A stretch of DNA of 64,000 nt, taken from NCBI RefSeq assembly GCF_003590945.1, contig NZ_QYUK01000011.1, positions 152,001 through 216,000 of the forward strand, in the 5' to 3' direction. This document shows, piece after piece, positions 34,734-46,722 of this stretch (position 1 is its first letter; each line of letters opens with the position of its first letter). Under the pieces are notes generated by a model, which worked only from the letters and a program-made list of their open reading frames with translations, did not search any database and was not told the origin of the DNA. Source of the DNA: Oleomonas cavernae. Its GTDB lineage: Bacteria > Pseudomonadota > Alphaproteobacteria > Zavarziniales > Zavarziniaceae. Made by a program: the position numbers and the translations under genes.

Positions 34734-37081
34734 TCGCTCGACGTATCGCCACTTTTGTAACGCGGCGCGCCATCTGGATCGCCCTGACCATGATGGTGGC
34801 GACGCTGGCGCTCGGCTATGCCTCCTTTACCCAGTTGTCGCTCAAGGTCGTGCTCGAGGCGATGCTGCCGGTGCAGCATCCCAACGTCCAGCTGATCGGC
34901 AAGTTCGGCGCCCAGTTCGGTGGCGCCAACACCACGCTGATCATGATCGAGAACACCAGGGGCACGATCTACAGCGAGGAATATCTCCAGGCCTACAAGC
35001 GCATTGCCGATCAGGTCTATTACTACCCGACCGTCAACCGCCCCCTGGTCCAGGCGCTCACCTTGCGCAAGACCAAGGCGGTGGTGGGCTCGGCCGACCG
35101 GATCGACATCAATGCCATCGCCTGGCCCGACCTGCCCAAGACCGAGGCGCAGTGGGCGGCCTTCGAGGTGGCGATCAAGGCGCAGTACCGCGGCACGCTG
35201 GTGTCCGACGACGAGCGCGCTGCCATGGTCGTCGCCGATTTCGCGGATGATACCGACTATGCGGCACTGGTCTCCTTCATCGAGGAGATGGGCGCCAAGG
35301 AGGCGGGGGCAGGCGTGTCGGTACACATGGTGGGCCGGCCTATCCTGCTGGGCACGATCGACCAGAACCTGAGCGCCACGATCGGGCTGATCGCCGTCTC
35401 GCTGATCTTCTCGGGGCTGATCCTGCTTGCCTATTTCCGGTCCTGGATGGGGGTGCTGGTGCCCATGCTGACGGCGGCGATCGGCACACTGTGGGGCACC
35501 GGTGCCATGGCCCTGGTGGGTTACAATCTCGACCCCCTGCTGATCATCCTGCCGGTCTTCGTCTTCGCCATCGTGCTGTCGCACTGCGTGCAGTTCATGT
35601 CGCGCGTGTTCGAACGGCTCGAAGCCGGCATAGCCATGCAGGAGGCGGTCGCCGGCGGCCTGGCGCAGGTCTTCGTGCCCAGCCTGACAGCCATCGTCGC
35701 GGCGGCGGGCGGCTTTTTCGTCCTGGTTCTGATCGGCATTCCCAGCCTGCAGGTCCTGGGCATCATCTGTGGTGCCTGGCTGCTGGCGATCGCGCCGGCG
35801 CTGATGCTGACCGCGGCGATCCTGTGCCTGCTGCCCCGCCCGCGCAAATTCCGCGCCCGCACCACCTGGGTGGAGACGGTCTGGCGCATCGCCCGCTTCG
35901 ACCGCTATCCGGCCGTGATCATCGGCATCACGATCGCCCTCCTGGGCATGGGCTACTACGGCGCCCGCTACGTCGTCATCGGTGACGCCATCGGCAGCCC
36001 GATCCTGTGGCCGGATGCCTCCTACAACCAGGACAATGCGCTGATCAACGGCCGCTTCGCCGCGGTCGGCACCGACACCATGTACATCTATGTCGACGGC
36101 CCGCCCAAGACCATGGTGGAGCCTTCGGTCTACCGCAACCTGGAGGAACTGGACCGTTACGTCTGGCAGCGGGTGCGCCAGGCGCGCATGGGCCTGAGCC
36201 TCGTGCCGATGATCAAGGCCGTGAACAAGGTTCTCTACGAGGGGGATCCCTCCTATGCCTTCATCCCCAATTCGACCGAGGAGGTGGGCTTCAACATCTA
36301 CCTGCTCAGTAGCCGCGGCGAACCCGGGGACTTCTCGGCCATCACCAACGACCAGTGGGAAATCGGCAGCATGGCGATTCCCCTGGACGACAAGACCGGC
36401 GGGACGGTGGAACTGGCGACATCGATGGCTCACGCCTTCATCGACCAGATGGCGCCGATCGCCAACGGCGCCAAGCTGAAGGCCACGGGCGGCCAGGTCG
36501 GCATCGCCGAAGCGATCAACGATGAGATCAAGGACACCAAGGATATCATCCTCGTCGCCATCGTTGTCTTCATCATGGCGAGCGTGCTGGTCGCCTTCCG
36601 CTCGGTCGTCGTCGCCGCTGTACTGTGCTGCGCCCTGCTGACCTCGACCTACCTGACCGACAGCTTCATGTGGCTGATGGGCATCGGCCTCAACATCAAC
36701 ACGCTGCCCCTGGCGGCACTGGGGGTCGGGCTTGGCGTCGACTACGGCATCTATGTCCTGCACCGGATCAAGGAAGCGCTGGCGGAAGGCCACAGCTACG
36801 AGCACGCGGTCACGGAATCGCTCAGGAGTGCGGGGAACGCGGTGATGATCACGGCCATCACCATGATCGCGCCGGTGATGCCGTGGGCCTTCTTCTCGGC
36901 GCTCAAGTTCCAGGCCGAGATGGGCGTGCTGCATGCTGTCGTGCTGCTCTTCAACATGATGGCGGCGCTGATCTTCGTGCCTTGCGCGGTGCTGATGTTC
37001 CGGCCGGTGGCACTGCGGCGGCTACACCGCCGCGCGACACCGCCACACGGACAACTGGTGGTCGGCGAGGGGGCCGAATAG
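34730..37081 (+). CDS. MMPL/RND-family transporter
   Basis: A 783-residue inner-membrane protein with two halves of six hydrophobic segments, each preceded by a periplasmic loop (first loop about residues 35-220, second about 420-620), the RND/MMPL plan. Sterol-sensing-like segments include LIAVSLIFSGLILLAYFRSWMGVLVPMLTAAIGTLWG and MASVLVAFRSVVVAAVLCCALL, with GVGLGVDYGIYVLHRIKEAL containing the proton-relay Asp. Start overlaps the YCF48 gene stop (ATGA). It likely moves a hydrophobic molecule with the DUF1302/DUF1329 partners; direction and cargo are unknown. Confidence 0.88.
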   Translation: MIARRIATFVTRRAIWIALTMMVATLALGYASFTQLSLKVVLEAMLPVQHPNVQLIGKFGAQFGGANTTLIMIENTRGTIYSEEYLQAYKRIADQVYYYPTVNRPLVQALTLRKTKAVVGSADRIDINAIAWPDLPKTEAQWAAFEVAIKAQYRGTLVSDDERAAMVVADFADDTDYAALVSFIEEMGAKEAGAGVSVHMVGRPILLGTIDQNLSATIGLIAVSLIFSGLILLAYFRSWMGVLVPMLTAAIGTLWGTGAMALVGYNLDPLLIILPVFVFAIVLSHCVQFMSRVFERLEAGIAMQEAVAGGLAQVFVPSLTAIVAAAGGFFVLVLIGIPSLQVLGIICGAWLLAIAPALMLTAAILCLLPRPRKFRARTTWVETVWRIARFDRYPAVIIGITIALLGMGYYGARYVVIGDAIGSPILWPDASYNQDNALINGRFAAVGTDTMYIYVDGPPKTMVEPSVYRNLEELDRYVWQRVRQARMGLSLVPMIKAVNKVLYEGDPSYAFIPNSTEEVGFNIYLLSSRGEPGDFSAITNDQWEIGSMAIPLDDKTGGTVELATSMAHAFIDQMAPIANGAKLKATGGQVGIAEAINDEIKDTKDIILVAIVVFIMASVLVAFRSVVVAAVLCCALLTSTYLTDSFMWLMGIGLNINTLPLAALGVGLGVDYGIYVLHRIKEALAEGHSYEHAVTESLRSAGNAVMITAITMIAPVMPWAFFSALKFQAEMGVLHAVVLLFNMMAALIFVPCAVLMFRPVALRRLHRRATPPHGQLVVGEGAE

Positions 37082-37131
37082 GCCGCGGTGCGGGCACAGG
37101 AAACCATCAAGAGACAGGGCTGGGGGGAAAA

Positions 37132-39129
37132 ATGGTTGCCAACTTCAGGCAGGATTGGAAGCGGACGCTGCTGGCTGGAAGCATCCTGGGCAGCGTCTTC
37201 GGCGGTGCGATTGCAACCGCCGGCGTGGCACTGGTCGCCGATTTCAGCTACTCGGGCCGTATCAAACAGGGCGTCTCGGTCGCCACCGACCAGGAAGGCG
37301 GGCCGACCTGGGGCCCGGCGAATTTCATCGCCGAAATCGCCGCTGCCCTGCGGGTGGACAAGAACCTGTCGTTCACGGCCGACCTTTGGATGAGGGCCGA
37401 CTGGTACCCCTATCTCAAAGGCAACTTGCGGGACCGGGGCATCCAGAACTTCAATTCCCCCGACTTCCGCGACCAGTTCGGCTATCGGCTGAACCGGGGC
37501 GGCAACACCTATGAGGGCGAAGTGCCCTTCGGCAACGATGCCAAGGATCTGCGCTGGTATACCGACATCGATGACATCGTCCGAGAACTGTCGGTCAATT
37601 ACCGCACCAGCGACCGTTCGGTTTCCGTGAAGGCGGGCAGTTTCGTCCGTGGCTGGGGCCAGTCGGACGGGCTGCGCCTACTGGACATCCTCAATCCGCA
37701 GGATTTCAGGGCCCGCTTCGCCCTGTCCAATTCCGACGAGCTGCGCATTCCCCAGACCGGCGTCGCGCTGGACGTGGACCTGGAGCGTCTCGGTGTCAGC
37801 GAGCCCTTCGAGGCGATCGGGATTACCAAGCCCTCGTTCGAATTCCTCTACTTTCCGCAGGTGCGGACGAGCGAGTTCTTCATCAACAACCCAACGCCCT
37901 CGGACCAGACGGACGGCGGCGTTTTCGGCTTTCCCTATCCCTACCTGGACGATCCGGTTTCCGGCCGCGGCCTGCCTTACATCGGCGCCAATCTGCACGA
38001 CCTGAAGCCCAACGAGTGGAGTTGGGACGACGGGGAACTTGCCGCGCGCTTCAAGTTCAACCTGCTGGGCGCCGAAATCGCCTTCAGCGGTTTCTACGGC
38101 TGGCAGGACCTGCCTGTCGTCACCCTGCGCGGCGGTACGCTTCTGGTCGGCACCAATTACAACGACCCCGACAAGGCGCTGTTGGCGGTGCCGCTGGGCG
38201 TCGAGTCGTCGACCTTCATTACCCACGGGCCGGGCATGTACATCGACCAGCTCCGCACGCTGGGCGGGCTGAACAATATTCTGGCCGGCGCCCTGGGGCC
38301 CACGCTGGGTGCCTTGAACTCGGCCGTGCAGGCGGTCACCGGGCCGCTCAATCTTCCCGTGGGTGGCCTGCTGCCCAGCGGCGGCAATGGTACCGTCACC
38401 CTGCCGGTGGTCGGGCCGCTGAACCAGGTGGCCCCCTTCGGCTGCACGAACCTGCCGATCATCGAGGGATGCTCGGTCAATTTCGACTTCAACCTCGACT
38501 ATCGCTACCGGCAGAAGCTGCTGGGCCTGAGTCTGACGCGCGACATCAAGGAGCTGCGCTTCGGGGGCAAGCAGGTGAATCCCGTGCTGCGCATGGAAGT
38601 CAGCTACGAATTCGACAAGCCGTTCAACCGCAGCGTCGTGCACACGCCCTATGGCGATGCAGTGGGTTCCGCGGCGCTGGTGGTGCCGCCGGGCGATGCC
38701 ATCACCTACCGTGACCAACTGGCGGTGATGGTCGGCTTCGACTTCCCCCTCTGGGTTCCCTTCTGGGACGGCCAGCGCAAATCGATCTTCACCAGTTTCC
38801 AGTTCTTCAACTTCCACACCTTCAATTCCGCCAACTTGATGTACCAGGCGCCCTATGCCCAGACGCCGGTGCACGCGAACCAGCAGTTCGTAACCGCGTT
38901 CTGGAGCGCGCAGATCGACAACGAGCAATTGGTGCTCGAGGGGCTGGCGGCCTACGACATCAACAACAAGGGCTTCGCCTACCGGCAGCGGGTCGACTTC
39001 AACTACTTCGGCGACTCGATCCGGCCACGCCTCGAATACATCCATGTCGATGCCAAGAACGGCGTCGGCCCGTTCGGCTTCATCAACGACGCCGACATTG
39101 TCGAGCTTTCGCTGACCTATCAGTTCTAG
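37132..39129 (+). CDS. DUF1302 outer-membrane barrel-like protein
   Basis: A 665-residue secreted protein. It begins MVANFRQDWKRTLLAGSILGSVFGGAIATAGVALVADFSYSG, a signal-like hydrophobic start, then long alternating strands (FSYSGRIKQGVSV, TADLWMRADWYPYL, VKAGSFVRGWGQSDGLRLLDILNPQDF) and a C-terminal SLTYQF ending in Phe, as in outer-membrane barrels. The DUF1302 hallmark of a porin-like assembly is clear; function is unestablished. ATG 37132 is used because upstream frame overlaps the transporter; SD is weak (GGGGGG). It probably forms the outer-membrane part of the MMPL system. Confidence 0.85.
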   Translation: MVANFRQDWKRTLLAGSILGSVFGGAIATAGVALVADFSYSGRIKQGVSVATDQEGGPTWGPANFIAEIAAALRVDKNLSFTADLWMRADWYPYLKGNLRDRGIQNFNSPDFRDQFGYRLNRGGNTYEGEVPFGNDAKDLRWYTDIDDIVRELSVNYRTSDRSVSVKAGSFVRGWGQSDGLRLLDILNPQDFRARFALSNSDELRIPQTGVALDVDLERLGVSEPFEAIGITKPSFEFLYFPQVRTSEFFINNPTPSDQTDGGVFGFPYPYLDDPVSGRGLPYIGANLHDLKPNEWSWDDGELAARFKFNLLGAEIAFSGFYGWQDLPVVTLRGGTLLVGTNYNDPDKALLAVPLGVESSTFITHGPGMYIDQLRTLGGLNNILAGALGPTLGALNSAVQAVTGPLNLPVGGLLPSGGNGTVTLPVVGPLNQVAPFGCTNLPIIEGCSVNFDFNLDYRYRQKLLGLSLTRDIKELRFGGKQVNPVLRMEVSYEFDKPFNRSVVHTPYGDAVGSAALVVPPGDAITYRDQLAVMVGFDFPLWVPFWDGQRKSIFTSFQFFNFHTFNSANLMYQAPYAQTPVHANQQFVTAFWSAQIDNEQLVLEGLAAYDINNKGFAYRQRVDFNYFGDSIRPRLEYIHVDAKNGVGPFGFINDADIVELSLTYQF

Positions 39130-39145
39130 AACCAAGGAGGTTATA

Positions 39146-40564
39146 ATGGTGGGGAGAAAACTGAGGCACGTCGCCGGGGGAGCCGCGATGCTCCTCCTGG
39201 GCGCTACTGCGGTGGCCAGGCCCGCATCTGCCGCGGACTGGGTGGATGAATGGCAGGCCCTGGCCAAGCAGACGGGATTTGCCGGCCATGCCAAGTTCGC
39301 CGAACTGCTGGCCAAGCCTGAGGCGATCAAGCTGGCCCAGGATTGGGAGGCGTTCCGCGGCTATTCGGCCCGCTCGATCGTGGCGCAGTCGAACATTCCG
39401 CCAGACCTGAAGCCCGGCCTGGAAATCACCCGGGAGACGGCGGCGAAATACCCCTGGCTGAAGGATTACCTGCCGGGACCAAGCTATGACCGGCTGATGT
39501 CCACCGAATGGTTCCGCTGGGGCAAGATCCGCATCGTGCCCACCACGCCCTATGCGCTGAGCGCCAAGCGCCTGGCGGCGACGAAGAAGGCGCAGGAAAG
39601 CGGCGAGGCCTTCACGGTGAACGACAAGGGGGAACTGATCGACAGCAAGGGCGGGTTTGCCCTGATCGACAGCGACGCGCAGCCCTTCACCAAGCCGAAA
39701 TCGGGCATCGAACTCTACTGGGCCTTCCTGGGCCACGGCATCGCCAACGAGAACCTGGAGTTCAAGCCGCTGGCCCTCGATGCTTGCCTGCCGAGTAACA
39801 AGGTCGACCGCTCCTACAAGCTGCACCTGTGGTGGCAGAAGATGCACGGCCGCGTCGACGTGGCGCCCCTGGGCTCGATCAAGGGCGAGGACGACGTGAT
39901 CGAGGCCGGCTCGGTCATCTTCCTCGAGCCTTACGACGTTGCTGGCCTGGCGGCGTCGCGGCGGCGCTTCGCCGCAGCGGACAAGCCGGATGACTTCCGC
40001 GCCTTCGTGCCCAGCCTGAAGCGCACCCGCATCCTGGCCGGTTCCGACTCCCAGGATCCGATGGCAGCGGGCTTCGAGGCAACCTGGGACGAGTGGCGGC
40101 AGACCTGGATGAAGCCCGACGTGAAGAATTTCGACTTCAAGATCGTCGGTGAGAAGCTGATCCTGGCCCAGCCGGAAACCGGCCATGCCTATAATCCGGC
40201 GCAGTCGTCCTCAAACCCGTGCGAGATCGACGTGATCGACCTCGAGCTGCGGCCGGTCTGGGTGCTGGAAGTGACCGACAAGACCGGCAACTACATCTAT
40301 GGCAAACGCCGCATCTATATCGACAAGGAATTCTGGTACGCCCAGTACCAGGAAATGTTCGACCAGAAGGGTAATTTGTGGCGTGTCATCGACGATGCGC
40401 GCGACATGATCCCGGAAAAGGGCCTGTGGATGTGGCGAAACTACGTCATGTGGAACGTCATCTCGACCCGCTATAACCGGATCGAAATGACGGCCGACTG
40501 GTCGATCCTGGACAAGCCGATGGAAGGCCTGTTCGACGTCGATGTGCTGCGCGACAACCGGTGA
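39146..40564 (+). CDS. DUF1329 periplasmic/outer-membrane lipoprotein-like protein
   Basis: A 472-residue exported protein. Signal peptide MVGRKLRHVAGGAAMLLLGATAVARPASA precedes ADWVDEWQ. Conserved DUF1329 features include LIDSKGGFALIDSDAQPF-like N-part, YKLHLWWQKMHGRVDVAPLG and ELRPVWVLEVTDKTGNYIYGKRRIYIDKEFWYAQYQEMFDQKGNLWRV. The fold is expected to resemble lipid carriers of the LolA/LolB type (recalled, not tested). AAGGAGG precedes the ATG. Position between DUF1302 and an isomerase-like membrane protein supports handling of a hydrophobic substrate across the envelope. Confidence 0.85.
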   Translation: MVGRKLRHVAGGAAMLLLGATAVARPASAADWVDEWQALAKQTGFAGHAKFAELLAKPEAIKLAQDWEAFRGYSARSIVAQSNIPPDLKPGLEITRETAAKYPWLKDYLPGPSYDRLMSTEWFRWGKIRIVPTTPYALSAKRLAATKKAQESGEAFTVNDKGELIDSKGGFALIDSDAQPFTKPKSGIELYWAFLGHGIANENLEFKPLALDACLPSNKVDRSYKLHLWWQKMHGRVDVAPLGSIKGEDDVIEAGSVIFLEPYDVAGLAASRRRFAAADKPDDFRAFVPSLKRTRILAGSDSQDPMAAGFEATWDEWRQTWMKPDVKNFDFKIVGEKLILAQPETGHAYNPAQSSSNPCEIDVIDLELRPVWVLEVTDKTGNYIYGKRRIYIDKEFWYAQYQEMFDQKGNLWRVIDDARDMIPEKGLWMWRNYVMWNVISTRYNRIEMTADWSILDKPMEGLFDVDVLRDNR

Positions 40565-40574
40565 GGTTAAACCC

Positions 40575-41051
40575 ATGAATCAGCAAAGCTGCTCGATCTT
40601 GTTCAAGCATGGCCTTCTGGCGGTGCTGGTTGCCCTCATCGCCGGGTTCTGCCTGATCTTCAGCATGATCGGCGAGATTTCCTTCTCACCGCTCCCCTTG
40701 GGCATCCCGATCGAAATGCCGGGCACGCCCGCGGGCTGGCGGGTGGTCCACCTGGGCATGCTGCTGAACGGCTTCATGGCCCTGATCTTTGGCGCGGTGT
40801 TGCGGCACCTGGTGTTCGACAACAACGCGCCCAAGCGCATCGCCTTGTTCACCGTGATCGCCGTCTGGGGCAATTTCTGCTTCTACCTGTTCGGCATGTT
40901 CGCGCCCAACCATGGCGTAACCATGGGCGACAACAGGCTGGGCGACGGCAACCTCGCCGGCGCGTTGGCCTTCCTGCCGGCGTTGGTGGGCGCAGTCACC
41001 TTGATCTTTGCGGTGGTCACCATGCTGCGTGGACGGGTGGCAAGTAACTGA
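40575..41051 (+). CDS. Styrene-oxide-isomerase-like four-helix membrane protein
   Basis: A 158-residue protein with four hydrophobic segments. The blocks IPIEMPGTPAGWRVVHLGMLLNG and WGNFCFYLFGMFAPNHGVTMGDNRLG strongly resemble StyC styrene-oxide isomerase (recalled as VPGSPEGWARAHSGPALNG and NRGLTFGDNRFGP). The His six residues before Asn (HLGMLLN) and the Asn-x3-Tyr (NFCFY) match the heme-binding and catalytic positions reported for that enzyme. StyC converts epoxides to aldehydes by a 1,2-shift. An aldehyde dehydrogenase lies 1.8 kb downstream. Substrate unknown; family call is from memory of one sequence. Confidence 0.7.
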   Translation: MNQQSCSILFKHGLLAVLVALIAGFCLIFSMIGEISFSPLPLGIPIEMPGTPAGWRVVHLGMLLNGFMALIFGAVLRHLVFDNNAPKRIALFTVIAVWGNFCFYLFGMFAPNHGVTMGDNRLGDGNLAGALAFLPALVGAVTLIFAVVTMLRGRVASN

Positions 41052-41070
41052 TCATTCCCAGTTCCAGGTG

Positions 41071-41105
41071 AAGACCGCCAGCGGCGACGCTGGCGGTCTT
41101 TCTCT
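41071..41105. terminator. Bidirectional rho-independent terminator
   Basis: Perfect 12-bp stem (AAGACCGCCAGC 41071-41082, GCTGGCGGTCTT 41089-41100) with 6-nt loop and T-rich tail, between convergent genes. Confidence 0.85.
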
Positions 41106-41116
41106 TTCGGCGGAAT

Positions 41117-41587
41117 CTAGCCGTTGGATTGCACGAACTTCCAGAGGCATGGCCGTGCGATCGCGCTTGCCACGACGAGTTCGAGCCACGCCCACGGCAA
41201 GGCAATCGCCAGGGTACTGGTGTCGGCGAGGTTCATGTTCAGCATCGCCAGCCAGAACAAGGCAAAGAAGAACAACCAGGACAGCGTGCCGGCCAGTACG
41301 ACAATGCCCCAGCCCTCGCCGAAGCGCTCGGCGGCGAGCCAGTAGATCGCGACCGTCATGGCGACGAGAAGCGTGTCCCAAAGGCCCCATGCGAGGAACA
41401 CGGTCAGGTCCATCGGTGCGACACCGGGCACCATGGCCAGGGTCTCGCGCGTCATGGGCATTACGAAGGCGAAATAGCGAAAGATTTCCGACGCGTTGAC
41501 CCAGATACTGACCACCAGGCAGGTCAGGACGAATGCGCGCAACGGAAATGGCGGCCTGGTCGTGGCGAGAGACACGCTAGCGGTCAT
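41117..41587 (-). CDS. Unrecognised four-helix membrane protein
   Basis: 156 residues with about four hydrophobic helices (RAFVLTCLVVSIWVNASEIFRYFAFVMP, PMDLTVFLAWGLWDTLLVAMTVAIYWLAAERF, WGIVVLAGTLSWLFFFALFWLAMLNMNLA, LAIALPWAWLELVVASAIA). I do not recognise the family. The ATG (after GGAAAGGATTCAGC) lies inside the end of the TetR gene, an 11-bp overlap, so it is translationally coupled to the regulator. A co-regulated membrane enzyme or small transporter is possible. Confidence 0.7.
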   Translation of the reverse strand: MTASVSLATTRPPFPLRAFVLTCLVVSIWVNASEIFRYFAFVMPMTRETLAMVPGVAPMDLTVFLAWGLWDTLLVAMTVAIYWLAAERFGEGWGIVVLAGTLSWLFFFALFWLAMLNMNLADTSTLAIALPWAWLELVVASAIARPCLWKFVQSNG

Positions 41588-42182
41588 GCTGAATCCTTTC
41601 CTCGACGGCGAAGAGAAGCTGGGCGGCATAGGTACGAAGGGGGCGTGGCTCCGGCGTGATGCGGGAGACCGACCAGAGACCTTGTGTCGAAACAGTCAGG
41701 AACGAGGCCAGTCGAGCGACCAGCGAGGGCCTGGCCGGCGCCTTTGCCCGCAGTTCGTTCCCGACCGCATTGCCAAAGCCGGCAGTCAGGCGGTCCAGGT
41801 GGCGTTGCACCAGGTCGCGGAAGACTGTGTCGTGAGGGCCGCTTTCAGTCATTGTGTTGGCCATCAGGCAGCCCGGTCCTGGCAGCCCACGCGCGGCGGC
41901 CAGATTGATCTGCGTCTCGAAATAGGCGCGGACCTGGGCCAATCCCGCCCCCGGCGCTTCAACCGGTGAGAAGGCAGGCGATACGATGGCCTCGCGGTAG
42001 GCCTCGGCCGCGGCGACAAACAAGCCGCGCTTGTCGCCAAATTCGGCGTAGAGACCGTGCCGGCTTACCCCGGTTGCCCGGACCAGATCGTCGATCGACG
42101 TGGCGTAGTAGCCATGAGACCAGAACAACTCCATGGCTTGGAGTGTTGCATCGTTGCGTTGATAGCTCTTGGGGCGTGGCAT
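41577..42182 (-). CDS. TetR/AcrR-family transcriptional regulator
   Basis: A 201-residue TetR protein. The N-terminal HTH reads AMELFWSHGYYATSIDDLVRATGVSRHGLYAEFGDKRGLFVAAAEAY; the C-terminal ligand domain resembles the TetR_C group with GCLMANTMTESGPHDTVFRDLVQRHL. Its start codon lies within the left edge of a 52-bp perfect palindrome, its probable operator, implying tight autoregulation. It heads a two-gene unit with the membrane protein downstream, and may also control the ferredoxin and the isomerase cluster. Confidence 0.88.
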   Translation of the reverse strand: MPRPKSYQRNDATLQAMELFWSHGYYATSIDDLVRATGVSRHGLYAEFGDKRGLFVAAAEAYREAIVSPAFSPVEAPGAGLAQVRAYFETQINLAAARGLPGPGCLMANTMTESGPHDTVFRDLVQRHLDRLTAGFGNAVGNELRAKAPARPSLVARLASFLTVSTQGLWSVSRITPEPRPLRTYAAQLLFAVEERIQHDR

Positions 42183-42229
42183 ATCTCGATTGAATCAGAA
42201 TGATCATTCTGATTCAATCGAGATATGCC
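42178..42229. repeat. 52-bp perfect palindrome over the tetR start
   Basis: Both arms read GGCATATCTCGATTGAATCA then GAATGA inward, meeting at the centre GA|TC with no spacer or mismatch over 52 bp. The left edge contains the tetR ATG (42182-42180), and the right edge a mirror ATG. Sub-palindromes TTGAATCAGAATGA / TCATTCTGATTCAA are the likely operator core. The exceptional length suggests an inverted duplication of the promoter-operator or a hairpin with RNA-level effects. Confidence 0.9.
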
Positions 42230-42254
42230 GGTCAAGACCGCGGGCGATCTACAG

Positions 42255-42291
42255 GAAAAAAGAAGACCGCCAGGGTTCATCCCGGCGGTCT
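42255..42291 (-). terminator. Rho-independent terminator behind the ferredoxin gene
   Basis: On the minus strand AGACCGCC (42291-42284) pairs with GGCGGTCT (42271-42264), followed by CTTCTTTTTT. Lies 45 bp past the ferredoxin stop. Confidence 0.75.
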
Positions 42292-42336
42292 CTAGTTTGA
42301 GGCGAGGGGGAGGCCCCGCCTCGGGGAAGCAACGGG

Positions 42337-42687
42337 TCAAATCAGCCCGGCGACCTTCACCACCAGGCCGTCGAAACGCTCGTCGACGGGGATCTGGCAG
42401 GCGAGCCGGGCACTGGCATCGCCGCTGGCAAGAAAGACGAGCATCTCGCTCTCGACCGTCTGCACCGGCGGTAGCGGCAGGTCGGACAAGTGCGAGACCA
42501 AGCAGGTGCCGCAGACGCAATTGCCGCCGCAATCGCCCTCGATCCCCGGAATGCCATTCGACTTGGCAAGCTGCATCAGCGACTGGCAGGGCCTGCCGGT
42601 CACGGATCGGCGGGTGCCGTCGTTCAGAACGAAAGTGATGCGCACGGCACCGGCTTCCCCCGCCGTGTCTTTGTCGGTGGCTGTCAT
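42337..42687 (-). CDS. [2Fe-2S] ferredoxin, adrenodoxin/vertebrate type
   Basis: A 116-residue electron carrier. The cluster ligands are visible as CGGNCVCGTC (C-x5-C-x2-C with an extra Cys) and RLACQIP for the fourth Cys. This type hands electrons to cytochrome P450s, Rieske oxygenases or non-heme oxygenases. No partner reductase or oxygenase is present nearby, so it may serve an enzyme encoded elsewhere. GGAAGGAAAA precedes the ATG. It lies between the palindrome-controlled tetR and a divergent aldehyde dehydrogenase. Confidence 0.9.
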   Translation of the reverse strand: MTATDKDTAGEAGAVRITFVLNDGTRRSVTGRPCQSLMQLAKSNGIPGIEGDCGGNCVCGTCLVSHLSDLPLPPVQTVESEMLVFLASGDASARLACQIPVDERFDGLVVKVAGLI

Positions 42688-42831
42688 CGGTTTTTCCTTC
42701 CCTCGGCCGCGTTTCGTCGCCGGATTCTCGCTGCCGGATCGAGCCGGGACGCCGATCTATTGGTTGGTTTCCCGGTCCCTCAGCCCCCCTATCATGACGA
42801 CAGAGGCCGCATTGAGACAGGAACCGATCCC

Positions 42832-44286
42832 GTGACCATCACATTCCCCGCGCCGCGGATTTCGACCGCCGATGACGAGTTGCAGCACCTCAAGGAAAGC
42901 TTCGCGGCGCAGGCCAAGGCCTTCCACGGTGACAGCAATCCGGACCGTCGGACCCGGGGCGACCGCCTGCACCGCCTGGGCGAGATGGTGAAAGCCAACA
43001 GGCAGCGCATCATCGAAGCTGTCGCAAGCGATTTCGGCACCCGCGCAGCGGAGGAGATCCGCCTGACCGAGATCGCCGCGAGCTTGGCGCAGATCGATTA
43101 TGCGCGGAAGAACCTGCGCCGCTGGATGCGGCCGCGCCGGCGCAGCACGTCGATATGGTTCCTGCCGGGCAGCGGGCGGGTCATCTGCCAGCCCCTGGGC
43201 GTCGTCGGCGTGATGGCGCCCTGGAACCTGCCCTTCAACCTGGCTCTCGCGCCCGCCGTCGCCGCGATCGCGGCCGGCAACCGGGTCATCATCAAGATGT
43301 CCGAGGCGGCACCGGCAACAGGCGAGCTGACCCGCGCCATCGTCAGGGAACGGATGGACGAGACGGAGCTTTCCGTCGTGCTGGGCGCGGCCGATGTCGC
43401 CCAGGCCTTCGCTGACTTGCCGTGGAACCACCTGCTGTTCACCGGATCGACTTCGGTCGGGCGCAAGGTAGCCCTTGCCGCCGCGCGGAACCTGGTGCCG
43501 GTCACGCTGGAGCTTGGCGGGAAGAGCCCGGTGATCGTCGACCGCGACTTTCCCATCGAGGAGGCGGCGAAGCGCGTAGCATGGGGCAAGGCCTTCAATG
43601 CGGGCCAGATCTGCGTGGCGCCGGACTATGCCTTCGTCCCGCGCGAGAAGGTGCATGATTTCGCCCAGGCCTTCCTCGCGCAGGGGCGTCGCTACTTTCC
43701 AGGCGGGATCATGGACGATGCCTACACCTCGATCATCGACGAGCGTGGCGTCTCGCGTCTCGAAGGCCTGCTCGGCGCCGCAAGGCAGATGGGGGCGGAG
43801 GTATTGTCACTGGGCGAGATGACAGACGTCTCGCGGCGGTCGCGCAAGATTCCGCTGTCGCTCGTGATCGACCCGCCGCGGGATTCGAGCATCATGACGA
43901 ACGAGATCTTCGGGCCGCTGCTGGTCGTGCTCGGCTATGACAAAATCGACGAGGCCATCGCCTTCATCCGCTCGCGGGAAAATCCACTGGGTCTCTATTA
44001 TTTCGGCCACGACAAGGCGACGCGCGGCAGGATCCTGTCAGAAACGCTGTCGGGCGGCGTGGCGATCAACGATGTGATGCTGCAATACCTGCAGGTGGAC
44101 CTGCCCTTTGGCGGCGTGGGGGCCAGCGGTATTGGCCGGTACCACGGGACAGAAGGCTTCGATACCTTCTCGCACCACCGGGCCGTTTTCACCCAGCGCG
44201 GCCCCTTGGGTGTGACCGGCCTCAAGTTTCTCTACCCGCCCTACGGCGCCATCGGGAAGAGGCTCATCTCGATGATGGGCGGCTGA
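42832..44286 (+). CDS. Aldehyde dehydrogenase, coniferyl-aldehyde type
   Basis: 484 residues from GTG 42832. Class 3-like aldehyde dehydrogenase: NAD site GVMAPWNLPFNLALAP, GSTSVGRKVALAAA, catalytic Glu in LELGGKSPVIVD and Cys in FNAGQICVAPDYAFVP, then NEIFGPLLVV and PFGGVGASGIGRYHG. The C-terminus ending hydrophobic (YPPYGAIGKRLISMMGG) resembles membrane-associated and coniferyl-aldehyde dehydrogenases. The start is uncertain because the ribosome site (AGGAA) is distant. It could oxidise the aldehyde expected from the isomerase-like protein upstream. Confidence 0.88.
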   Translation: MTITFPAPRISTADDELQHLKESFAAQAKAFHGDSNPDRRTRGDRLHRLGEMVKANRQRIIEAVASDFGTRAAEEIRLTEIAASLAQIDYARKNLRRWMRPRRRSTSIWFLPGSGRVICQPLGVVGVMAPWNLPFNLALAPAVAAIAAGNRVIIKMSEAAPATGELTRAIVRERMDETELSVVLGAADVAQAFADLPWNHLLFTGSTSVGRKVALAAARNLVPVTLELGGKSPVIVDRDFPIEEAAKRVAWGKAFNAGQICVAPDYAFVPREKVHDFAQAFLAQGRRYFPGGIMDDAYTSIIDERGVSRLEGLLGAARQMGAEVLSLGEMTDVSRRSRKIPLSLVIDPPRDSSIMTNEIFGPLLVVLGYDKIDEAIAFIRSRENPLGLYYFGHDKATRGRILSETLSGGVAINDVMLQYLQVDLPFGGVGASGIGRYHGTEGFDTFSHHRAVFTQRGPLGVTGLKFLYPPYGAIGKRLISMMGG

Positions 44287-44544
44287 AACGCCAATTTTGG
44301 CTCGGAAATGCGGGAGGGTATCGATGGCTTTCCAAGAGAAGCGTAGCATGACGTGCCACAGCGAGCTCGCCGGCGTGCAAAGGTGGTTCCGCGCTTCCGT
44401 ATTGATGTGACCATATCTTCGCTTTGAATGGTAGTTAGGTTGACCTGGGAATGCGTCGCCCCAATTGTTCTGAAGGTGTCTCGCTGATCCTCAGTACCGT
44501 GCGATTTTCGGCATTCGCACTAATGTAATCTCACAAATCCCTAG

Positions 44545-44760
44545 ATGCTCTGAGCCTGTGGGAACTGACGGTGCAATGGCTTGGCCAGTTCGAACGGTGA
44601 AGCCAATTGCAGTAGGGCCACATCGTTACCGTCGCGTGTGGGAATCCGTACGCCGACCAGCTGGCCGGCATTCGTCCAAGGGGCGTGGCGGCGGGCAGGC
44701 CGGTCGCGTTGTAGGTCTGACAGAGCACCACGGCGACGGCCACAGCCGTATCCTGTTCAG
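44545..44760 (-). pseudogene. Trypsin-like serine protease fragment (remnant)
   Basis: A minus-strand frame reads NAGQLVGVRIPTRDGNDVALLQLASPFELAKPLHRQFPQAQ, resembling the segment around the catalytic Asp (xNDVALLxL) of trypsin-family proteases. It has no start, His or Ser motif, and is bounded by stops. Probably decayed; assignment rests on one motif. Confidence 0.35.
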
Positions 44761-44915
44761 CCTGGTTGGGGTTCGACGGGGGCATGCTTTGCTTGGGGCA
44801 TCGACAACAATCTGACGCGAAAGCTCAGCACCGCGGATCCGGTCCAGGTCGCGGCAATCAAGGGCGCGGCGCGGACGGGGCCTATTTCTCCGCATCAGTG
44901 TGGCACTTGTTGTCG

Positions 44916-45206
44916 TCATCCTAGGCGATCGTCATCCTGGGCGATCCGATCGCGGGGTCTTTGGCCGCGGCCGGGTTGATGATGATAGTGGGTGTCCACC
45001 TCCATTTGCCGGAATAGTACGAGCATTGGCGCGCCCGTAGCGCGCTGGCGCACGAGCCCCGCCACACCCATGATGCCCACCATCAGCGCGATGATGGTCC
45101 AGATATCCCTCCCGGTGAGCCCCACAGCCACTGGCATCATCACGGCGCCTTGGGGCTCAGCCACACGCACTGTCCCGACCAGCATTGTGGCCACGGCCAT
45201 TTTCAT
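44916..45206 (-). CDS. Doubtful small membrane protein
   Basis: 96 codons with two hydrophobic stretches (MAVATMLVGTVRVAEPQGAVMMPVAVGL; IWTIIALMVGIMGVAGLV) then a charged tail VRQRATGAPMLVLFRQMEVDTHYHHQPG. No ribosome site precedes the ATG and I do not recognise the family. It could be a real small gene or a remnant; coding potential is uncertain. Confidence 0.3.
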   Translation of the reverse strand: MKMAVATMLVGTVRVAEPQGAVMMPVAVGLTGRDIWTIIALMVGIMGVAGLVRQRATGAPMLVLFRQMEVDTHYHHQPGRGQRPRDRIAQDDDRLG

Positions 45207-45271
45207 CGGGGCGACGATTGAACGACTCGGACAATTTGATTACGTTCTGATCAAACTGGAAACAAAGTTTC

Positions 45272-46722
45272 ATGGATCGCACCAGCACTATCCTTATTGT
45301 CGCCCGCGACGGCACCGAATGGGTCGATGTGGTCGACCACCTCGCCGACGACTATGGCTATCGGGTGCTGGTGGTTCAGGGCAGTGCCGAGGCCCTGGCG
45401 ACCCTGGTCGACGTTCATGTCGATCTGGTGGTCGCCGAGATGGAGGAGCCGGCGGAGAGCGGCGCCGCGCTGTTGACCGAGCTGCGGGTCAGCCATCCCG
45501 ACATTATCCGGATACTGATCCTCGATGCCGATGCGCCGGGGATCGGGCGGGCCATCTCCCAGGCGGCGATCTATCAGTTCCTGCGCAAGCCGCTCGATGC
45601 CGAGCAACTTGCCCTGGTGGTCAAGCGCGGGCTCGAAACCCGGGAACTGGCGCGCCGGCACCGCATCCTCTCGCGCGAATTCAAGGTAAGCGACAATGCC
45701 GGCCTGCTCGACCTTCACCCCAGCCTGCCCTTCCGGGCCGAGAGCATGCGCTTCGAGAAGCTGGTCTATGCCAGCGAGAAAATGGCAGAACTGTGCGACG
45801 TCGCCCGCCAGGCCGCGCGCACCGAATTGCCGATCCTGATTCAGGGCGAGACCGGCACCGGCAAGGAATTGCTGGCCCGGGCCGTGCATTACAATTCGGC
45901 CCGCAAGGCCAGCCCGCTGCAGGTGCAGAATTGCGGCGGCATGTCCGACGAACTGCTGCAGTCGGAACTGTTCGGCCACAAGCGCGGCGCCTTTACCGGG
46001 GCGATTTCCGACCGGCTGGGCCTGTTCAGGGCGGCGGACGGCGGGACGGTGTTCCTCGACGAAATTTCCGAAGTCTCGCCCTCGTTCCAGGTCAGCCTGC
46101 TGCGCTTCCTCCAGGAGGGCGAACTCAAGCCACTGGGCTCCGACAAGTCGCTGATCTGCAATGTCCGTATCATCGCCGCGTCGAACCGGCGGCTGAGCAT
46201 GCTGGTGGCGAAGGGCGAGTTTCGCCAGGATCTTTATTTCCGCCTCAAGGGCTTCGAGTTCGAGGTGCCGCCGCTGCGCGACCGGGTCGAGGATATTCCG
46301 GTCCTGGCCGAATTCTTTGCGGCCAAGCACAGCGAGGCGATCGGCCGCAAGATCCTGGGGATTTCCGCCAGCCTGATCGAAAAGCTCGTGCATTATGACT
46401 TCCCCGGCAATATCCGCGAACTCGAGAACGAGATCCGCCGGATGGTGGCCTTGGCCAAGGATGGCGAGTACCTGACGACGCGCAATCTCTCGCCGGCCTT
46501 GCAGGCGGCCGCGCCGCGCCGCACCCCCAGGCGTCGGCCGGGTTCGTGCCTGAGGGTGAGACCCTGAAGGATCGTGTCGAAAGCCTCGAGAAGCATGTCG
46601 TGCGCGAGAGCCTGGGGCGTCATCGCTGGAATCAGAAACGGGCGGCGGAAGAGTTGGGCTTGTCGCGCGTGGGGTTGGCGAACAAGATCAAGCGCTACGG
46701 GCTCGACGAGCCCCATCGATAG
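45272..46722 (+). CDS. hoxA: HoxA/HupR-like NtrC-family activator (frameshifted)
   Basis: Receiver, sigma-54 AAA+ and Fis-type HTH domains. The receiver has [11 protein letters not shown], so the usual phosphoacceptor Asp is Glu. The AAA+ part has Walker [12 protein letters not shown], sigma-54 contact loop GAFTGA and VFLDEIS. The first frame ends at 46567, but the HTH ([29 protein letters not shown]) continues in the -1 frame to TAG 46722. One missing C in the run 46524-46528 explains this. HoxA/HupR proteins activate hydrogenase promoters and can work unphosphorylated. A sigma-54 promoter lies before the small-subunit gene downstream. Confidence 0.85.

Follow-up and report, generated by a model that had tools for sequence, protein, structure and literature searches.

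A perfect 52-bp palindrome at the start of a tetR gene in Oleomonas cavernae: a putative operator and core promoter with an extension that fits template switching

A perfect palindrome of 52 bp covers the start of a tetR gene in the alphaproteobacterium Oleomonas cavernae. Comparison with related loci separates an inherited regulatory symmetry of 30 bp from an outer extension, 11 bp on each arm, which is perfectly matched in the O. cavernae sequence and in none of the relatives compared. Taken together, the observations are probably best explained by an autoregulatory operator that is fused with the tetR core promoter, that gives the gene a leaderless or nearly leaderless start, and that was later enlarged by template switching.

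The palindrome and its locus

An earlier note on this DNA had described a 52-bp palindrome at the tetR start with neither spacer nor mismatch, and this was confirmed by a repeat search in the window, that is, the whole stretch of 64,000 nucleotides that was analysed. The palindrome lies at 42178-42229, with its centre between 42203 and 42204; its arms (42178-42203 and 42204-42229) are 26 nt each, 100% complementary and separated by 0 nt. It takes in the region of the tetR promoter together with ATGCC, the five bases with which the coding sequence opens. The symmetry ends abruptly, only 6 of the next 26 outward positions being paired, which is approximately what is expected by chance. The 52-bp sequence occurs once in the genome, the other match being the palindrome itself read on the opposite strand. 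A survey of 864,000 bases took in the 64-kb window and 40 further pieces of contig C11, each 20 kb long, and in it the runner-up among perfect palindromes without a spacer had arms of 14 bp; as 16 kb were counted twice (stretch L083 overlaps the window), the survey represents about 848,000 distinct bases of this genome.

tetR occupies 41577-42182 on the minus strand, with its ATG at 42182-42180, and encodes a protein of 201 residues. Family searches identified an N-terminal helix-turn-helix domain (TetR_N, PF00440, 49.9 bits against a cut-off of 24) and a C-terminal ligand domain (TetR_C_13, PF16925, 33.8 bits against a cut-off of 27). As a single sequence the protein matches CifR, an epoxide-responsive repressor, over residues 3-62 (E 1.2e-7); a profile built from nine relatives matches CifR over residues 3-184 (E 2.3e-18). 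No literature was found joining AcuR with the TetR family, a palindrome and an operator. Upstream of the palindrome, and on the same strand as tetR, lies a gene for a 2Fe-2S ferredoxin (Fer2), which is followed by a hairpin resembling an intrinsic terminator, with a T-rich tail (42263-42292, minus strand).

Downstream of tetR is a gene for a small membrane-type protein (41117-41587, minus strand), whose likely start at 41587 overlaps the end of tetR; it is likely to be co-transcribed with tetR and to be the target of the regulator. For the window copy, neither Pfam (limit E 5) nor NCBIfam (limit E 0.1) gives a match, and the copy in the closest relative found, L004, gives one weak NCBIfam row, IcmT_TraK, at E 0.045 and far under the cut-off. 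The protein carries the motif NASEIFRYF-FVMPM. Homologues follow tetR in L004 (51% identity over 127 residues), L034 (49% over 123) and L061 (35% over 143), and in L033 the shared motif, rather than a pairwise comparison, places one directly after tetR. The motif was not found within 1.5 kb after tetR in L059, L060, L062, L063, L005 or L080.

Several further genes lie near one another within 36625-46567 and possibly form a catabolic cluster. They comprise an 834-aa frame (36625-39129), a gene for a DUF1329 protein (39146-40564), an aldehyde dehydrogenase gene (within 42490-44286) and a gene for a sigma-54 activator (45272-46567). Convergent with the tetR unit is a plus-strand gene (40542-41048) for a small membrane-type protein like the styrene-oxide isomerase StyC (NF045734, E 4.3e-30, 104.7 bits, under the curated cut-off of 150).

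Relatives of the tetR gene

Ten tetR relatives were compared: L004, L005, L059-L063 and L080, all with E 5.5e-33 or better, together with L033 and L034, the two best of 26 loci in a separate search. The searches covered overlapping samples of 60, 385 and 398 genomes. Identity to the window TetR ranges from 38 to 52% across the ten, L004 being the closest at 52%, and no sister strain was found in the sampled genomes. The families of G128, G126 and G096 (2, 4 and 5 genomes, respectively) yielded no new orthologue at the limits set, and plasmids contributed eight records with 34-40% identity. L081 (39%, E 1.9e-31) was left out of the set; in this locus a perfect TGGAATGATCATTCCA core stands some 45 bp upstream of the ATG. 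Among more distant loci, similar cores are found at other distances, for example at -31 in L070 and at -11 in L007 and L067, and some have no recognisable core.

Nine of the ten relatives bear an equivalent operator core, as described below. These nine cannot be counted as independent, since L059/L060 and L062/L063 are near pairs. For the pooled alignment the centre of L033 was set by hand at -20, and that of L080 at -14.

A probable inherited operator of about 30 bp

The core of the palindrome, CAGAATGATCATTCTG (42196-42211), belongs to a type, GAAY-N4-RTTC, that is centred 20-22 bp before the tetR ATG in nine of the ten relatives, the exception being L080. This conserved position supports a palindrome of the operator type at tetR. 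Counted from the centre outward over the nine operator-bearing relatives, the numbers of loci in which positions 1 to 15 are paired are 5, 6, 5, 9, 9, 9, 7, 8, 0, 7, 8, 7, 6, 7 and 6. Pairing is therefore high at positions 4-8 and 10-15, while position 9 is never paired. At positions 16 to 26 the numbers fall to 2, 2, 3, 3, 3, 3, 3, 4, 2, 1 and 2, and the total beyond 15 bp per arm, 28 of 99, is at the level of chance. Individual relatives pair at 8 to 13 of the inner 15 positions; the window pairs at all 15, and at 26 of 26 overall. The inherited symmetry, about 15 bp per arm (42189-42218), looks like a TetR operator.

Symmetry alone is not outstanding at every locus. In shuffle tests made locus by locus for eight of the operator-bearing relatives, the observed symmetry was reached by 0, 0, 4, 0 and 0 of 1000 shuffles for L059 to L063, but by 59 for L004, 388 for L034 and 267 for L005. 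Since these last three do not stand out from their shuffles, it is the fixed position and the shared core that constitute the evidence, and not each symmetry by itself.

L080 (48% identity) has no such core at -21; its best symmetry is an imperfect one of 32 bp in a different sequence (L080:1471-1502), which is centred at -14 and also reaches the start codon; it pairs at 12 of 16 positions, and 1 of 1000 shuffles reaches this figure.

Searches with the pattern CAGAAYNNNNRTTCTG gave a single site in the O. cavernae genome and a single site in G001, in each case at tetR; in G006 the only match lies elsewhere, and G002-G005 have none. When the pattern was reversed as a control, the O. cavernae genome again yielded one match on each strand. 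The number of matches is therefore close to chance, and it is the place of the match that matters. As the search of this genome with the core pattern returned the tetR site only, that exact pattern points to no wider regulon. With up to two mismatches allowed, the window contains five matches to the core, one of them the site itself, where 2.06 would be expected; a count of five is reached in 7 of 100 shuffles, which gives no support to further copies of the core in the window.

A putative core promoter within the operator

The inner block also appears to contain the tetR core promoter. Read on the minus strand, a -35-like hexamer TTGAAT (42212-42217) is followed, after a 17-bp spacer that includes the operator core, by a -10-like hexamer TTCAAT (42189-42194), which ends 6 nt before the ATG. 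Both assignments are putative. Because the analyst placed the hexamers by reference to the operator centre, their distance from the ATG adds nothing to what the operator position already says; their sequence is independent of it. The TTG of the -35-like hexamer is found in register in eight of the nine operator-bearing relatives and is missing in L005. The second hexamer begins with T in all nine and with TA in eight, the ninth, L004, having TTCAAT as in the window. TTCAAT does not have the A at position 2 that the promoter scan demands of a -10. The sole match of that scan, TTGACC-18-CAGAAT (42206-42235, minus strand), would place the start of transcription at about 42199, inside the palindrome, and it lies at a different place from the TTG conserved in the relatives.

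In the 20 nt before the ATG, no 4-base match to AGGAGG was found in the window or in seven of the nine operator-bearing relatives; L005 and L060 have such a match. It therefore appears that a single element serves as both operator and promoter and that transcripts would begin at the ATG or close to it, and what is predicted from the hexamer spacing and the missing Shine-Dalgarno match looks like a leaderless, or nearly leaderless, tetR start. Leaderless transcripts are on record in another alphaproteobacterium, Zymomonas, where they account for 119 of 2,675 TSS-gene pairs in the data given in PMC7566282.

The outer extension and its likely origin

The outer 22 bp of the palindrome, 11 bp on each arm, consist of a gene-proximal part (42178-42188), which includes the tetR ATGCC, and a gene-distal part (42219-42229), the mirror of CGAGATATGCC, where the pooled symmetry of the relatives is at chance and the palindrome has its sharp end. 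In single loci the number of outer positions that are paired varies: L061 has 7 of 11 and may have an outer extension of its own, L059 has 6 of 11, and L004 has none. Asymmetry of the outer part is thus not complete at every locus.

The earlier note had observed that the palindrome mirrors the first bases of the gene and had taken inverted duplication as its probable origin; the comparison supports this for the outer part. ATGCC is present in nine of the ten relatives, and none of the nine that bear the operator has the mirror, GGCAT, at the corresponding position of the other arm. Template switching during replication can make imperfect inverted repeats more perfect (PMC7202029; PMC8604942), and the outer 11 bp per arm fit an extension of this quasipalindrome kind. 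A single templated copy would account at once for the zero mismatches, for the pairing seen at position 9, for the mirroring of coding bases and for the abrupt limit of the symmetry. When the five coding bases are excluded, both outer arms match the relatives equally well, at 53 of 104 positions each (L033 excluded), so that the direction of copying is read from ATGCC. Copying from the gene-proximal arm onto the upstream side is, on this basis, weakly supported.

In E. coli, strong instability of palindromes concerns lengths well above 100 bp, and the persistence of one of 52 bp therefore needs no special selection. The view that its retention points to selection is not supported for all 52 bp, as symmetry above chance, pooled over nine relatives, is confined to the inner 30. 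The parts of the review PMC7999016 to which we refer state no length limit for palindrome instability in bacteria.

Proposed mechanism and alternatives

We propose that TetR, as one dimer or two, binds the symmetric 30 bp in which the -35 and -10 elements lie. Bound there, TetR would block RNA polymerase and silence the unit formed by tetR and the gene for the membrane-type protein, until a small ligand released the repressor and silencing was lifted. Transcription would start at the ATG or a few bases from it, and the palindrome would act as DNA rather than being carried in the mRNA as a hairpin. In the lineage of the window, it would have become perfect and grown from about 30 to 52 bp when a replication template switch at the existing quasipalindrome copied one arm onto the other; the arm copied onto the upstream side was probably the gene-proximal one, with its ATGCC.

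A different role had been suggested in the earlier note, in which a long hairpin in the transcript would sequester the start codon and add control at the RNA level. If the whole palindrome were transcribed from upstream, the product would fold at -45.3 kcal/mol (z -7.66), and in the modelled full-length transcript the start codon is fully paired. However, both candidate promoters would start transcription inside or after the palindrome, giving transcripts with at most one arm; when these were modelled from 42182 and 42199, the start codon was unpaired with mean probabilities of 0.85 and 0.53, respectively. The terminator-like hairpin at 42292-42263, between the ferredoxin gene and the palindrome, should limit readthrough, and in eight of the nine operator-bearing relatives the upstream arm carries the -35-like TTG. 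Readthrough from the ferredoxin gene could make some hairpin, but as the main mechanism it was rejected and is very unlikely. A fold-back artefact of assembly or library preparation is likewise very unlikely. Hairpins do favour fold-back chimeras when libraries are prepared; against this, the palindrome is centred on a conserved operator, sits within a 4.37-Mb contig, and has unique, sensible DNA on both flanks, with tetR on one side and the ferredoxin gene and terminator-like hairpin on the other.

It is also unlikely, if less so, that the full 52 bp are selected as an extended operator on which several TetR dimers load cooperatively. Such loading is exemplified by EthR, for which an octamer on a 55-bp operator has been reported (PMC9210681), and L061 carries an imperfect 46-bp palindrome at the equivalent place, with its seven outer pairs. 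The chance-level pairing past 15 bp per arm in the pooled relatives speaks against it, as does the architecture described for the EthR site, which combines direct and inverted repeats and is not a single perfect palindrome.

Divergent genes and possible reading in both directions

In some relatives a divergent gene lies across the operator. In L061 and L063 it encodes a haloalkane dehalogenase (NF002938, 434.8 and 428.5 bits, cut-off 241), and the divergent gene of L062, judged by its first residues rather than by a family search, begins identically. By eye, a purine-rich stretch resembling a ribosome-binding site precedes the ATG of the dehalogenase gene, and there is none before tetR. These neighbours hint at a halogenated alkane or a related compound as ligand for the L061-L063 group of TetR proteins. 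The divergent gene of L059 resembles those of glutathione-dependent oxidoreductases, under the curated cut-off, and that of L060 has the same first residues; L004 and L034 have divergent genes for a sulfate-binding protein and a polyphosphate kinase, respectively. In L059-L063 the hexamers mirror each other (TTGTA/TACAA), and the site could serve there as a symmetric bidirectional promoter.

The operator of the window faces no divergent gene. The mirrored ATG opens a 137-codon frame (42225-42638, plus strand) antisense to the ferredoxin gene, which is taken as chance unless RNA data differ. It is nonetheless conceivable, albeit improbable, that the template switch copied the promoter, the operator and the leaderless start codon as one unit, giving a self-mirrored promoter-operator with a second leaderless transcript from 42225 on the plus strand into this frame and one TetR site that closes both directions. 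Were this so, a leaderless gene start could be carried to another site in a single step.

Significance and comparison with known systems

On the preferred reading, an operator fused with the core promoter and later extended, the O. cavernae locus is a clear instance from nature of bases that appear to be shared by a palindromic operator, a core promoter and a start codon. It illustrates, in a form that can be tested, how errors of replication at operators may yield perfect palindromes without selection for their full length, and it is an example of mirrored promoter symmetry in this group of TetR proteins.

Operators bound by pairs of dimers have been described for the TetR-family proteins QacR, CgmR (32 bp) and RolR (29 bp) (PMC9210681). 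The window resembles these in having a symmetric block of about 30 bp with a TetR_N protein encoded alongside, and differs in that its operator is putative and has a perfect symmetry that extends over 52 bp, part of it coding. The EthR operator discussed above is similar in total length and is bound by a member of the same family (PMC9210681); it is built of direct and nearly perfect inverted repeats and bound by an octamer, whereas the outer 22 bp of the window palindrome are not conserved in the pooled relatives. The description of the palindrome as far beyond a normal TetR operator thus stands for its perfect symmetry, but not for its length, given an inherited part of about 30 bp and the 55 bp reported for EthR. 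A TetR-family site on the start codon of the repressor's own gene is known from SAV576 (PMC3742746). As described in that report, the SAV576 site contains a 15-bp palindrome-like sequence and spans +383 to +407 relative to the start of transcription, apart from the promoter.

Symmetric bidirectional promoters are known in bacteria (PMC12825309). The putative promoter described here is likewise pseudo-symmetric, with -35- and -10-like hexamers that mirror each other, and in L061-L063 these hexamers sit between divergent genes. The window, in contrast, has no divergent gene, and transcription in the reverse direction is hypothetical. The proposed growth of the palindrome resembles quasipalindrome template-switch mutation, in which an imperfect repeat is perfected by templated copying of one arm; the cases treated in PMC7202029 and PMC8604942 concern E. 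coli lacZ reporters and yeast genes, whereas here the element is a bacterial promoter-operator with a start codon, and the event is deduced from comparison alone. The palindrome is unusual, yet most likely it fits mechanisms that are already known.
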